Of a DNA stretch of 46,304 nt, positions 12,213 to 20,725 are shown piece by piece (within the stretch, counting starts at the first letter, position 1; each line of letters begins with the position of its first letter). The notes beneath the pieces were generated by a model, which saw only the letters and a list, made by a program, of their open reading frames with translations, ran no database searches and was not told the origin of the DNA. The DNA comes from Acidilobaceae archaeon. Its GTDB lineage: Archaea; Thermoproteota; Thermoprotei_A; Sulfolobales; Acidilobaceae. A program made the position numbers and the translations under genes. Where the stretch lies: assembly GCA_027051095.1 (NCBI GenBank), contig JALUAM010000041.1:1-46304 (forward strand), given 5' to 3'.

Positions 12213-12545
12213 TCAGGCTGCGCCCACCCTCCTGAGCTCCTCCAAGGCCATTCTTAAGGCCCTGACCCTTTCCTCCTCGCTCTCAGCCGCAAGAGCCTCA
12301 ACTATCCACGCTGTAACCCTGTACAGCACTGCCAGAGCAACACCTTGCCTCTTAAGCTCTGACTCCAGCGTCTGCGTCTGAGCCTTTATAGAGTCTATTA
12401 TCACTTCTAAAGCCGAGATAGCGTCCTCTAAGTCTCCGCCATGGTGATGATGGTGTTCGTGCTCGTGGCCATGCTCATGGTGGTGATGAGCCTCCACCTC
12501 TTCAACAATCTTCTCGAGGTCCTCCCTCCTCTTAGGCATAGTCAT
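12213..12545 (-). CDS. Histidine-rich small protein, probable metal binder
   Basis: About 110 residues in two parts: a charged N terminus containing a dense histidine/glutamate tract (HHHHEHGHEHEHHHHHGG, coded at about 12431-12484), then a helical domain of roughly 75 residues (LEDAISALEVIIDSIKAQTQ onward). I know no named family. The tract suggests binding or storage of nickel, zinc or cobalt, but this is inference. A strong TATA box (TATATAAA, 12595-12602) would start transcription near 12574, so an upstream in-frame TTG at 12575 cannot be the start; ATG at 12545 is chosen, with GTG at 12560 and ATG at 12539 possible. Convergent with ZPR1. Confidence 0.75.
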   Translation of the reverse strand: MTMPKRREDLEKIVEEVEAHHHHEHGHEHEHHHHHGGDLEDAISALEVIIDSIKAQTQTLESELKRQGVALAVLYRVTAWIVEALAAESEEERVRALRMALEELRRVGAA

Positions 12546-12593
12546 CCTCTTCCTGGCCACGCCAGGCCCCCTCAAGGACTAGCGGGTCCTCGA

Positions 12594-12730: not shown

Positions 12731-13168
12731 TTAGGCTAGTTTTATAATCACGGTCTTCAAAGTGCCGCCCTCGAATATCACGTTAATGGACGCGTTAATG
12801 CCCTCAAGCTTTGAGAGGGGCTCAAGCGACTTCCTTACCCTCTCCAGCTGCAGTATCTTCTCCTGCATACCCTTAATGGCGTCTACTAGGACCTGCAACT
12901 CAAGCCTAGGGTTAGGGTTAACGTAGACCTTCACACCGTCGAGGTTAAGCTCTGCTGCCGCTGCAGGCGGCGTAGAGCCTCCCAGCTCTCTAAGCATCTC
13001 CTCGAGCTTAGACGAAAGGTCGGCCGCCGCCCTGATCTTCTCGACTTCTCTTAAAAGCTCTGCTAGGATCTTTTTATTATCGGCTATCTCTTTGTCCAGG
13101 TACTCGAAAAGGTCTCTAACATTGTTGAACCTCATTATGTTGATGCCCTGAGCGCTTTCAGCAGCCAC
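12731..13168 (-). CDS. Uncharacterised coiled-coil protein
   Basis: A 145-residue protein that I do not recognise. Residues 12-60 are predicted coiled coil (RDLFEYLDKEIADNKKILAE onward), an Ala/Pro linker follows (STPPAAAAELN), then a strand-rich piece (GVKVYVNPNPRLELQVLVDA), a second helix (MQEKILQLERVRKSLEPLSK) and a terminal strand pair ending TVIIKLA. The helix-strand-helix plan recalls prefoldin-like subunits, but no specific match is claimed. GTG start with GGTGAGC upstream. It sits in a minus-strand block with a Cys-containing unknown and the nucleotidyltransferase pair. Confidence 0.65.
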   Translation of the reverse strand: MAAESAQGINIMRFNNVRDLFEYLDKEIADNKKILAELLREVEKIRAAADLSSKLEEMLRELGGSTPPAAAAELNLDGVKVYVNPNPRLELQVLVDAIKGMQEKILQLERVRKSLEPLSKLEGINASINVIFEGGTLKTVIIKLA

Positions 13169-13216: not shown

Positions 13217-13588
13217 CTACTTCTCCTCTAAGTTATCGCTACCCGAGCTTCTGATCTCCGCGTACTCCACCACGCTCCTAGCTATAGACCTAGCGAGCTT
13301 CGATAGCCCCTCTCCCACGCACCTTCTAACACACTCTTTCCTAGCATTCTCTGGGAGCTTGGAGCACCTGCTATACATGCATTCTCTCTCCAGGACCTCC
13401 GTTTTAATGTAATATACTGTCACTCCGGGCCCCTTCCATTTAGATAGCATCCCTGCTACCCCTGAGCCCCTGACAAGCTCGTCTACCACGCTCTCGTCTA
13501 TTAGCGAGGCTGAGAACACGTATGCCCTCAGCTCCGATGAGATGCTTCTTGCAAAGCTAGCAGCTATCTCCCTCACCTTCCTCTCCAC
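13217..13588 (-). CDS. Uncharacterised protein with a four-cysteine segment
   Basis: A 123-residue protein of unknown function. The N-terminal 60 residues are helical and strand-mixed (VREIAASFARSISSELRAYV; GVAGMLSKWKGPGVTVYYIK). The middle holds four cysteines in CMYSRCSKLPENARKECVRR plus a following Cys, spaced C-x4-C-x10-C-x3-C, which could bind a metal or form disulfides. The C terminus is a helix followed by a Ser/Gly/Asp tail. GTG start, 48 bases before the coiled-coil gene, probably one transcript with it. Confidence 0.6.
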   Translation of the reverse strand: MERKVREIAASFARSISSELRAYVFSASLIDESVVDELVRGSGVAGMLSKWKGPGVTVYYIKTEVLERECMYSRCSKLPENARKECVRRCVGEGLSKLARSIARSVVEYAEIRSSGSDNLEEK

Positions 13589-13646: not shown

Positions 13647-14609
13647 TTACTCCGTGATAGCCCTAGAATGATTACCCTTTAGCCTGCGTATACTCGTATG
13701 CTCGCCTCTAACTGCTAACAGGACGGCCCTGCCCGAGTATAAGCCTTCTACTTCGAAAACTCCCCCCTCGTAGAGGTCGCCCGCCAAGTTGTACTCATAG
13801 GATATTATATACCTGCCGTCCTCCGAGCGCACGCAGGGAGGGTATAAAAGCGCGCTCTCCTGGCCGCCCTCAACATTGACCACAGCCCTAACCCTACCCT
13901 TTACGTGCTCCATCCAGCTGTAGCTCCTGAGCGGAGGGCAGTGGGCGCCTGGCTCTACTGGCGCCATGACGATCGTCACCCTTCTGCCCTTGACAAGACG
14001 CCTTCTCCAGCTCACCCTCGCCTCGGCTTCGAATACGCCCCTATAGGCTATGACTGTCATCTCAGGCTCGCCTAGCTTCGACATGGACTCATAGATTAAA
14101 CCAGCCTTCCCGGGCCTAGGATAGGCTACCAGGTCTACATCGGAAGACGTGTGATAATAACCGCCTGCTAGGGAGCCCGCGACGCCTACCTCTTCACAGG
14201 GGGAGACCTCTAATCGTGGAAACACCTCGCCTAGGACCTCGATAGCCCATTCCGGCCCGGCCCCTTCTATTAAGCGCCTGCAAGCCTCCAAGGGGCTTAT
14301 AGACCTGACTACATCGAGGGCGCTGGCGTAGGGCATTTCGGCTGAGTAAAGAGGGTCGTGGACCAGCCTTATGTGGCGGAAAGCCTCGCCTAGCTCCTCC
14401 GGGGTGTAAGAGGCCAGAAGGCGGCAAAGCCTTGCGCTACCCAGCCTCCAGGGCCCCTCACCGCACACTTTATACTTGGGTAGCACTGCCACGAAGCCTG
14501 GAGGCGAGGGGAGCGCTAGGACCTCCCCTAAGATCCCGGAGCGCAATTCTATAATAGACCCATGGACTAGCCTATCCTTGAGCCTTAAGTAGCTCAAGCC
14601 TTCCACCAT
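13647..14609 (-). CDS. Predicted nucleotidyltransferase-fold protein A
   Basis: A 320-residue three-part protein. Residues 1-50 form a small strand-rich domain with PSPPGFVAVLPKYK. Residues about 95-205 form a polymerase-beta-like nucleotidyltransferase core with the G-S pair at 145-146 and D-x-D at 157-159 (VAGSLAGGYYHTSSDVDLVA); an acidic strand EAEAR at 194-198 may give the third carboxylate. The C-terminal 110 residues are strand-rich. The neighbour at 14572-15420 has the same plan and overlaps its start by 38 bases, so these are tandem paralogues. Substrate unknown; archaeal families of predicted nucleotidyltransferases exist, but I cannot confirm membership. Confidence 0.75.
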   Translation of the reverse strand: MVEGLSYLRLKDRLVHGSIIELRSGILGEVLALPSPPGFVAVLPKYKVCGEGPWRLGSARLCRLLASYTPEELGEAFRHIRLVHDPLYSAEMPYASALDVVRSISPLEACRRLIEGAGPEWAIEVLGEVFPRLEVSPCEEVGVAGSLAGGYYHTSSDVDLVAYPRPGKAGLIYESMSKLGEPEMTVIAYRGVFEAEARVSWRRRLVKGRRVTIVMAPVEPGAHCPPLRSYSWMEHVKGRVRAVVNVEGGQESALLYPPCVRSEDGRYIISYEYNLAGDLYEGGVFEVEGLYSGRAVLLAVRGEHTSIRRLKGNHSRAITE

Positions 14610-15420
14610 AGTCTGGGGTCGCCACTATGTCCCCGCTTGCTACCTCCACCCTTAGCAGCAGCTTTGCCCGGTAAAGGCCCTTAGGCAGCTCTTGAAAGCT
14701 TGTCCTCCAGGTCTCGAGAACGCCGCTCAGGCCTATGCCGCGGAACCTGTAGCGTGCAGGCACCGTGATAGCGCCGTGCTTACTAGCCTCACCCTCAATC
14801 ATTATTATGCCATTATACCTGCCGGCGGGCACGTATAGAGGAGTATAGCACTCCGCGCCCTCAGCCTTCTCCAGCACCCTAATCGTAACCCTAAGCCCGC
14901 CCCTACACACCTCTGTCACCCGCTCTTTGGGCCTTAGCCCTGGCCACTCGCTTCTCGGGCCCAAGCATCCCCTGAAGCCGAGCCTCTCTAGAGCCCTTCT
15001 CAGCCTCTCAACGCCGCCCTCAATGTCTTCAAAGTGGATTAGCAGGTCCACGTCGCTAGCCCGACCCTCCTCCGCTACAGCCCACGAACCCGTTAGCCCG
15101 CTCCAAGAGGGCTCAGCGATGCCGATCAGGTCGTGGATGATCTCTGGCAGGTCCTCAGCCCTCACTTCAAGAGACTTGCGGGGGTCTATGAGCCTCCCCG
15201 TATCGCGAGTCGCAGGCACCTCTGCCGATAAGCAGCCAACCCATGATAGTGATGCCTGAGGTGACCTCTCAGGCAATGTTTCAAGCCTAGAAGCCCCTTT
15301 AGCCCGGTAGGGGACTGCTATCAACATGCCTGGAGGGTGGTAATAGCCCTTGACTATCCAATAGTAAACTATGCCAGCCAGCGGCGCTTCCAGGATCCAC
15401 CCTTCAAAAGGCCTTCTCAT
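14572..15420 (-). CDS. Predicted nucleotidyltransferase-fold protein B
   Basis: A 282-residue paralogue of the downstream protein. An N-terminal strand-rich piece has HPPGMLIAVPYRAK; the nucleotidyltransferase core shows G111-S112 and D123-x-D125 (GLTGSWAVAEEGRASDVDLL); the C-terminal beta domain contains GRYNGIIMIEGEASKHGAIT and ends in strands similar in order to the partner. Retention of the metal-binding aspartates in both copies argues that both are catalytic. It begins 27 bases after the phosphohexulose isomerase stop and overlaps its partner, so the three genes are one operon and the two proteins may form a heteromer (inference). Confidence 0.75.
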   Translation of the reverse strand: MRRPFEGWILEAPLAGIVYYWIVKGYYHPPGMLIAVPYRAKGASRLETLPERSPQASLSWVGCLSAEVPATRDTGRLIDPRKSLEVRAEDLPEIIHDLIGIAEPSWSGLTGSWAVAEEGRASDVDLLIHFEDIEGGVERLRRALERLGFRGCLGPRSEWPGLRPKERVTEVCRGGLRVTIRVLEKAEGAECYTPLYVPAGRYNGIIMIEGEASKHGAITVPARYRFRGIGLSGVLETWRTSFQELPKGLYRAKLLLRVEVASGDIVATPDYGGRLELLKAQG

Positions 15421-15447: not shown

Positions 15448-16107
15448 TCAGCTAGAGTGAGGGAGTTCAATATTTGCATGGATCTCCTTCATGTAATCCT
15501 CGTTTATGCCGAGTCTAACCATTAATGCGTAGATCACGCCGTCTAAGAATACCATGGCCGTGTCCTCGAAAAGCGTGCCCAGCGGAGCGAGAGGCTCATG
15601 GATCCCTAGTATCTGGCGGGCGAAGAAGTCTTCCATACGCGACATCTTGGCCCTACCTGGCACCCTAACTACTACATCCGCTATCCTAGCTAGAGGGCTG
15701 TCCCTGTAGGTGGTTATCGCCGCCACCCTCGCGTTAACCTTCTTCGCAGTCTCCGCAGCAGTGACAATGAGTTGCGTCCTGCCCGACCCTGATATAGCTA
15801 CTACTAAGTCGCCCTCCCTCACGCTCGGCACGATAGTCTCGCCCAGAACGTAAGAATTGAAGCCTAGATGTAGGAGCCTCATTGCGAAAGCCTTGCCTAC
15901 GAGGCCGCTTCGACCCGCACCCATCACGAGAACCTTCTTAGACTCCTTGTACACCCTAACCAACTCGTCTATGAACATGTTGACTTCGTTTTCATCGATC
16001 TCCTCTATAGATTTCATTATGAAGCTTGCTATCTCCCTCATAGCTAGGAATACTGGATGGGCCTTAGAGGCCCCTGAGCCCTCCTTTCCTCCAGCCTCTC
16101 TCTCCAA
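15448..16107 (-). CDS. hxlB: 6-phospho-3-hexuloisomerase (SIS domain)
   Basis: A 219-residue SIS-domain isomerase. Motifs are [20 protein letters not shown], the phosphate loop [17 protein letters not shown], the central [20 protein letters not shown] and the C-terminal helix ending IHANIELPH, which carries the histidine seen in this family. In archaea it interconverts hexulose-6-phosphate and fructose-6-phosphate, normally with hexulose-phosphate synthase, supplying pentoses by the reversed ribulose monophosphate route. No synthase gene is in the window. TTG start with a 25-residue charged extension; ATG about 22 codons further in is an alternative. An ATTTTAAG promoter lies near 16149. Confidence 0.88.
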
Positions 16108-19417: not shown

Positions 19418-20725
19418 GTGGGCCCTATCGGCCAGGCTCTTGACCTCCTCGAGAAGGTTATACGTTTAACAAATGAGGGCAATTATTGGAGGGCCTCGAC
19501 TACTCTAAACCTCATAGCTAGCGAAAACGTAATGAGCAAGACTGCTCTCAAGGCTTACCTAAGCGATTTCATGTTCAGGTATGCCGAGGGGAAGCCTTTT
19601 AAACGCTACTATCAGGGCACAAAGTACTTAGACGAGCTTGAGGTATTCACCGCAAAAATCATTGGTGACATGCTTGGCACTAACATGGTAGAGCTAAGAC
19701 CTATAAGCGGTACTATAGCCAACGCTGCCGTGTTCAGGGTTTTAGCGGCTCCCGGCGAGAAGGCCGCCATAGCGCCTGTACAAGCTGGAGCCCATGTTAG
19801 CCATACAAAGTTTGGTACTTTAGGCGCGCTAGGGATTATACAGGTCCCTCTGCCTTATGACGACGAGAATATGAATGTTGACGTTGACAAGGCTGTCAAA
19901 GTCGTCGAGAAAGAGAAGCCCAAGTTCGTCGTGCTCGGCGGCAGTGTATATCTATTCCCGCACCCGGTGGAGGAGCTTGCAGATGCAATCCATAGCGTTG
20001 GCGGCAAGCTTGTATATGATGCTGCCCACGTGTTAGGCCTCATTATGGGCGGCGTTTGGAGGAACCCGCTAGAGAAGGGGGCTGATGCCATGACTGCGTC
20101 CACCCATAAGACATTTCCAGGCCCGCAGGGAGGCCTCATAGCTTTCACAGACGAGAAACTGTTCAAGGATGTAGGTAAAACCGTGTTCCCCTGGTTCGTT
20201 AGCAACCACCACCTGCACAGAATCCCAGCCACCGCGGTCACAGCGCTGGAAATGATGGAGTATGGGCGGGAATACGCTAAGGCTATAGTGGAAAATGCTA
20301 GAAAGCTCGCTGAAAGCCTCGCAGAGGAGGGGTTCGACGTTGTAGGCGAGAACTTAGGTTACACTAGAAGCCACCAGGTACTTGTAGACGTTAGGAGGCT
20401 TGGAGGCGGGGCTAAGTGCGCGGCGCTACTGGAAAGCGCCGGCATAATAGTTAACAAGAACCTGCTCCCCTGGGACCCGCCCGAGGCTGTTAAAGATCCC
20501 AGCGGGCTGAGGATCGGAGTCCAGGAGGTTACAAGGCTCGGCATGGGTAAGAGCGAGATGAAGGAGATAGCCACCCTTATGAGAAAGGTCTTAATAGACG
20601 GCAAAGAGCCCAGTAAGGTCTACGAGGAGGTAAAGGAGCTGCGCTCGCAGTTCAAGACGGTGAAGTATAGCTTCGACGAGGTAAGAGCCCACGAGAAGAT
20701 AACCACGCTATTAGATTTATTATAG
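19418..20725 (+). CDS. glyA: Serine hydroxymethyltransferase
   Basis: A 435-residue PLP enzyme that interconverts serine and glycine while charging a one-carbon carrier, a tetrahydropterin in archaea. Motifs: [20 protein letters not shown] near the N terminus, [13 protein letters not shown], the PLP-lysine segment [16 protein letters not shown] and the late [20 protein letters not shown]. Length and motif order match archaeal GlyA. GTG start, nearly leaderless. It stands alone, with convergent GNAT downstream. Confidence 0.96.

Follow-up and report, generated by a model that had tools for sequence, protein, structure and literature searches.

The window analysed here, i.e. the whole stretch of 46,304 nucleotides forming contig C41 of an Acidilobaceae genome (1.43 Mb, 83% complete), encodes two paralogous nucleotidyltransferases (NTases), A and B, which very probably act in the biosynthesis of a methanopterin-type one-carbon (C1) carrier. 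Methanogens, and many archaea besides, employ carriers of this type as C1 coenzymes. Documented here are the paralogy of the two proteins, their intact catalytic motifs, and their association with this pathway through co-occurrence and linkage with genes for CitG, MptG, MptA, MptD, MptE and DUF447. Taken as a whole, the explanation that we favour, and consider reasonably likely, is that these ancient paralogues act together with a CitG-family protein in building the carrier, by way of a relay chemistry set out below. The pair is not confined to the organism from which the window derives, and is a single instance of an ancient archaeal family that has scarcely been characterised, possibly the one named COG1665.

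Gene layout and conserved motifs

The genes for A (13647..14609, 320 amino acids) and B (14572..15420, 282 amino acids) both lie on the minus strand and have 38 bases in common (14572..14609, minus strand), where the end of B overlaps the start of A, confirming the overlapping tandem paralogues of the preliminary description. They are preceded by hxlB (15448..16107, minus strand), encoding 6-phospho-3-hexuloisomerase (TIGR03127, 185 bits against a cut-off of 160), giving the minus-strand order hxlB, B, A with 27 bp between the hxlB stop and the B start. Among relatives the junction of B and A varies from a gap of 18 bp to extensive overlap, and distant lineages show ATGA-type overlaps of 4 bp; the overlapping N-terminus of A is unconserved, and the exact length of the overlap is set by which start codon is taken. 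On these comparisons the 38-base overlap is an ordinary and variable translational-coupling arrangement.

Both proteins consist of an N-terminal strand domain, an NTase core and a C-terminal beta domain. This three-part plan, including a P-P-G motif (at residue 36 in A, and from residue 29 in B as part of HPPG at 28-31), was recovered as first described, whilst the C-terminal E-G motif did not hold up as a conserved landmark. The G-S and D-x-D motifs, previously noted as retained, are indeed intact in A (G145/S146 and D157/D159) and in B (G111/S112 and D123/D125). These aspartates are invariant in alignments of the window's family (f1), and both are found in 101/101 members of the wider protein family, the alignment of which also has an invariant glycine and a serine in 96% of sequences. 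A and B are both apparently active nucleotidyltransferases. Inspection by eye of the A7/A8 alignments made no invariant D/E evident for the third catalytic carboxylate, expected on a later strand, the corresponding strand reading IRxVK or SIHPVK.

Several further genes surround the pair. Downstream of A are two small conserved genes with no Pfam match (13217-13588 and 12731-13168, both minus strand), which run in the same direction as A in several relatives; the product of the latter resembles a coiled-coil, prefoldin-like protein. The gene at 12213-12575 (minus strand) specifies a 120-residue protein, likewise with no Pfam match, that carries the histidine-rich stretch HHHHEHGHEHEHHHHHGG and recurs close to A and B at 10 loci from two families; it is possibly a metal-binding protein. 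Serine hydroxymethyltransferase, a user of folate-type C1 carriers, is encoded 4 kb from B (19418..20725, plus strand; PF00464, 207.5 bits) and is mentioned as context only.

Fold and family history

Searches of Pfam and NCBIfam with A and B from the window returned only sub-threshold or chance matches, with NTP_transf_2 (PF01909) at 13.1 and 12.4 bits, respectively, against a cut-off of 21. Several relatives do pass the PF01909 cut-off, and among 11 B-type members 10 show a match to it of some strength. A sequence search of the PDB using the A and B profiles gave nothing significant. Structure prediction, which the preliminary description had put forward for a heterodimer, yielded confident models of the single proteins with an NTase-like core (AlphaFold2 mean pLDDT 90.2 for A and 90.4 for B), built on alignments that drew their genes from named genome records. 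Foldseek comparison of these models with the PDB identified the NTase cores of Cid1/TUTase/PAP over about 110 residues (best NTase E about 0.02-0.03) and, separately, OB-fold proteins including SSB and HIN domains, all of these matches being weak, in that none for A or B had E < 0.001. The models thus support an NTase core flanked by beta domains, with no close relative among solved structures. The likeness to NTP_transf_2/Pol-beta-type NTases (PF01909) lies in the succession of G-S and then D-x-D; in contrast to those enzymes, A and B add the N-terminal strand domain and a C-terminal, OB-like beta domain, and the third carboxylate is not evident. As paralogous NTases kept as a pair, and belonging to no curated family beyond the weak NTP_transf_2 match, they retain the standing first given to them as candidates for an undescribed enzyme step.

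Profile-profile comparison relates the Acidilobaceae A and B families with E 3e-14, in a match that covers the N-terminal domain and the NTase core, and less diverged A and B homologues from other lineages align over their full length with E 1e-69; these slower-evolving homologues each match back to the profile of the window's A or B family. In a tree of 101 members, B-type sequences form a clade (support 0.99) with members from most of the families sampled, and the A side, on which some deep nodes are weakly supported, likewise has members from most of the families sampled together with two extra paralogue clades. Since the B clade and the A side each span most families, the duplication is old, reaching beyond this genome and predating the Thermoproteota families sampled. 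The two genes are adjacent in nearly all sufficiently complete genomes of the window's family, and elsewhere are often at separate loci.

Several lineages have, in addition to the A and B types, members of one or two other NTase paralogue clades (loci L162, L163, L164, L165, L166, L167, L169 and L176), and some genomes hold up to five members of the NTase family. The extra paralogues occur in tandem or convergent clusters near genes that we take to be those for formylmethanofuran dehydrogenase and Ftr. Family members at Bathyarchaeia-like loci, a label for which the lineage was taken from gene content, likewise lie near genes to which these two names were given from our own reading of the sequences. 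Family-profile searches of viral contigs found no relatives. In the plasmid collection the NTase searches matched Streptomyces only, the proteins in question being distant homologues (e.g. L177:9923-11017 and L178:10004-11020; about 22-30% identity over 90% of the query). These are encoded on 20-22 plasmids directly 3' of an APH-type phosphotransferase gene, with a histidine phosphatase, a GntR regulator and SAM methyltransferases as other neighbours, and the locus is possibly a specialised-metabolite or nucleotide-tailoring cassette.

Co-occurrence and linkage with CitG

The closest partner of the pair is a homologue of CitG, i.e. triphosphoribosyl-dephospho-CoA synthase. When neighbours were clustered at about 60 loci of the family, a single functional partner was seen to recur in lineages far apart, and this was a CitG-family gene (PF01874 matches of 146.6 and 58.5 bits for two such neighbours). 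In a phylogenetic profile of 200 Thermoproteota genomes the A profile matched 100 and CitG 90, distributed as 90 genomes with both, 10 with A only, none with CitG only and 100 with neither (p about 1e-45, with related genomes, which are not independent, counted singly). Joint presence or joint absence of A and CitG is also apparent within each of four GTDB families (f19, f21, f31 and f39), as in f19, where genus g99 contrasts with g46, g70 and g108. All 90 CitG genomes accordingly possess an NTase, and in 34 of them, from 12 families, CitG lies no more than 1.5 kb from an NTase gene, as exemplified by the Sulfolobaceae-type genomes in which A overlaps CitG. Within the window's own family CitG was found in 25/25 genomes of good quality; the window genome, although below the quality bar applied to those 25, has a CitG gene on another contig (G000:C58; PF01874, 112 bits).

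Citrate lyase was considered as the reason for the presence of CitG and was rejected. The lyase is essentially absent, CitF being found in 2/200 genomes, and therefore CitG serves no citrate lyase in these genomes.

Clustering with methanopterin genes

The other genes that follow the NTases belong to the tetrahydromethanopterin pathway or accompany it. MptG (beta-RFAP synthase), counted as matches above 60 bits, was present in 76 genomes, all 76 of which have A, and DUF447 exceeded its cut-off in 67 genomes, 66 of which have A; the genome sets of MptG, CitG and DUF447 thus fall inside that of the NTases, save for one weak DUF447 match. MptG was not recognisable in 19 genomes that have both A and CitG. 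The window genome itself contains CitG, MptG-family and MptA genes. DUF447 has no match in it or in the other sampled members of its family, which is a case of replacement or loss.

Gene order is most telling at three loci. At one locus (L204) DUF447, CitG, B and A are consecutive on the same strand and divergent from MptA-MptE-MptD, comprising MptA (TIGR00294, 317 bits against a cut-off of 220), an MptE-like gene and a dihydroneopterin aldolase (PF04038, MptD). At a second (L161) MptG and DUF447 diverge from a series containing an MptE-like gene, a DHPS-like gene (TIGR00284, 378 bits), MptA, the dihydroneopterin aldolase MptD, B and A. B overlaps MptG at L205 (TIGR00144, 120 bits against a cut-off of 113.5) and, in another lineage (L190), CitG adjoins DUF447 and lies near MptG and MptA. 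MptA, MptD, MptE and MptG, which both cluster and co-occur with the NTase pair, cover the pterin and RFAP parts of the pathway; A and B would fill later steps.

A putative mechanism for tail assembly

In methanopterin, an alpha-ribofuranosyl 5-phosphate is attached to ribitol and joined through a phosphodiester to 2-hydroxyglutarate. CitG attaches the triphosphoribosyl group of ATP to dephospho-CoA, at a hydroxyl; CitX or MdcG then hands on the phosphoribosyl part to the hydroxyl of a serine, and pyrophosphate is lost. The CitG/CitX and MdcB/MdcG systems resemble the present case in that a CitG-family protein is paired with a D-x-D NTase-type protein; they differ in employing one NTase where there are two here, and the partnership with a CitG/MdcB-type protein is seen here as a genomic association. 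On this analogy the most likely chemistry for the pair, although one that could equally turn out otherwise, is a CitG/CitX-type relay that would make a phosphoribosyl phosphodiester tail.

In such a relay, the CitG homologue would place a 5-phosphorylated ribosyl group onto the ribitol of a pterin intermediate, and if ATP is used as it is by CitG the group added would be triphosphoribosyl. The D-x-D NTases would come next, transferring or activating that phosphate so that pyrophosphate is released and the phosphodiester of the tail is formed, for which the partner in methanopterin itself would be 2-hydroxyglutarate. A and B might function as a heterodimer, or might catalyse two consecutive steps, i.e. 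nucleotidyl activation followed by transfer. Alternatively, should PRPP be the substrate of the archaeal CitG, activation of the 5-phosphate could fall to one NTase and its transfer to the other, an arrangement that would account for the retention of two active paralogues. The reaction, the substrates and this division of labour are what we infer from the analogy with CitG and CitX. That comparison is one of mechanism, and apparently not of homology. Homology to CitX was looked for and not found: E. coli CitX aligned to the family with hhalign probabilities of 1.3% and 0.1%, and the MdcG match was marginal (E 0.077 for one of 11 members).

An inventory from 2011 counted at least nine steps in the non-pterin part of methanopterin, and estimated that 7 methanopterin proteins were unknown (PMC3087415). 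We tentatively propose that the archaeal CitG, together with A and B, might be the missing builders of the ribosyl-phosphate phosphodiester tail, working by a relay like that of citrate lyase with paralogous transferases that are unrelated to CitX or very remote from it. A and B would in this way pass from hypothetical proteins to testable enzyme candidates for the gap in that inventory and, were the proposal true, triphosphoribosyl followed by phosphoribosyl transfer would constitute a single chemical strategy serving two unrelated cofactors. We found no paper linking CitG or triphosphoribosyl with methanopterin, although most subscription papers lay outside the search and an earlier proposal is possible.

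Alternative roles for the pair

The preliminary description placed the pair beside a sugar-phosphate isomerase and suggested a sugar phosphate or RNA as substrate. The neighbour is indeed there, and at most f1 loci an hxlB cluster lies close to A and B, as would suit A and B being subunits of a hexulose or sugar-phosphate enzyme that acts with HxlB. Such a role is nevertheless highly improbable, as the proposed count of co-occurrence between the pair and hxlB revealed no association: HxlB, which served as a control of comparable frequency in the 200 Thermoproteota genomes, exceeded its cut-off in 49/100 genomes with the family and in 52/100 without it (table 49/51/52/48; p = 0.78), and its position upstream of B thereby loses its value as a functional clue. 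In the sampled neighbourhoods hxlB stood beside the pair in the window's own family only, together with one f6 genome in which it is 2.8 kb from A, and beyond the window's family the pair has pterin genes as neighbours; the link to hxlB is local synteny. The notion of an RNA-modifying enzyme (a tRNA or terminal nucleotidyltransferase) draws on the Foldseek results, where the best matches to the NTase core are RNA nucleotidyltransferases and the OB-fold matches extend to SSB and HIN domains. These are weak matches to generic folds, however, and since distribution and linkage instead track a coenzyme pathway, the genomic context points to methanopterin-type coenzyme biosynthesis, lending no support to RNA as the substrate and making this role very unlikely. 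The sequence and structure searches also gave weak matches to an MNT antitoxin, but a HEPN-MNT-like toxin-antitoxin or defence module is barely credible: no recurrent HEPN-like partner emerged from the neighbour clusters of the approximately 60 loci, the genes flanking the pair in the window have no HEPN Pfam match, A and B are about three times the length of MNT and possess flanking domains, and their distribution is that of a core-genome family conserved with the coenzyme pathway.

A closer competitor keeps the pair in the same pathway and assigns it to another step, such as nucleotidyl or phosphoryl transfer to a pterin or ribitol intermediate before CitG acts, or a part in maintaining or recycling the coenzyme. 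Linkage and phylogenetic profile fix the pathway and not the step, A occurs without a CitG match in 10 genomes, and at L161 the pair directly follows MptD. Against this, the tightest association is that with CitG, which extends from complete co-occurrence (90/90) to the operon order DUF447-CitG-B-A, and we regard action at another step as rather unlikely.

Related loci in bacteria and haloarchaea

The proposed formation of the tail phosphodiester by A and B, following ribosyl transfer by CitG, may be set beside what is found in bacteria. CitG homologues occur in annotated H4MPT clusters on Thiodictyon and Azospirillum plasmids, which also hold beta-RFAP synthase and the methylene-/methenyl-H4MPT enzymes; a search of the plasmid collection found no NTase relatives on the plasmid records of these organisms. 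Dephospho-H4MPT, a carrier not known to bear the hydroxyglutaryl phosphate, is of interest here. It is the form used by Methylobacterium (PMC6193120). The occurrence of bacterial CitG without the NTases, as observed on plasmids only, is what a role of the NTases in making the phosphodiester would predict, and is no more than suggestive. The carrier of Sulfolobus is sulfopterin (PMC3697235), the tail of which may differ from that of methanopterin.

Haloarchaea are described as having no methanopterin-specific enzymes (PMC8305020). CitG and DUF447 genes are adjacent on a plasmid of the haloarchaeon Natrinema (L199:8004-9448) and, given this arrangement, the possibility of a ribosylated pterin in haloarchaea may deserve a look.
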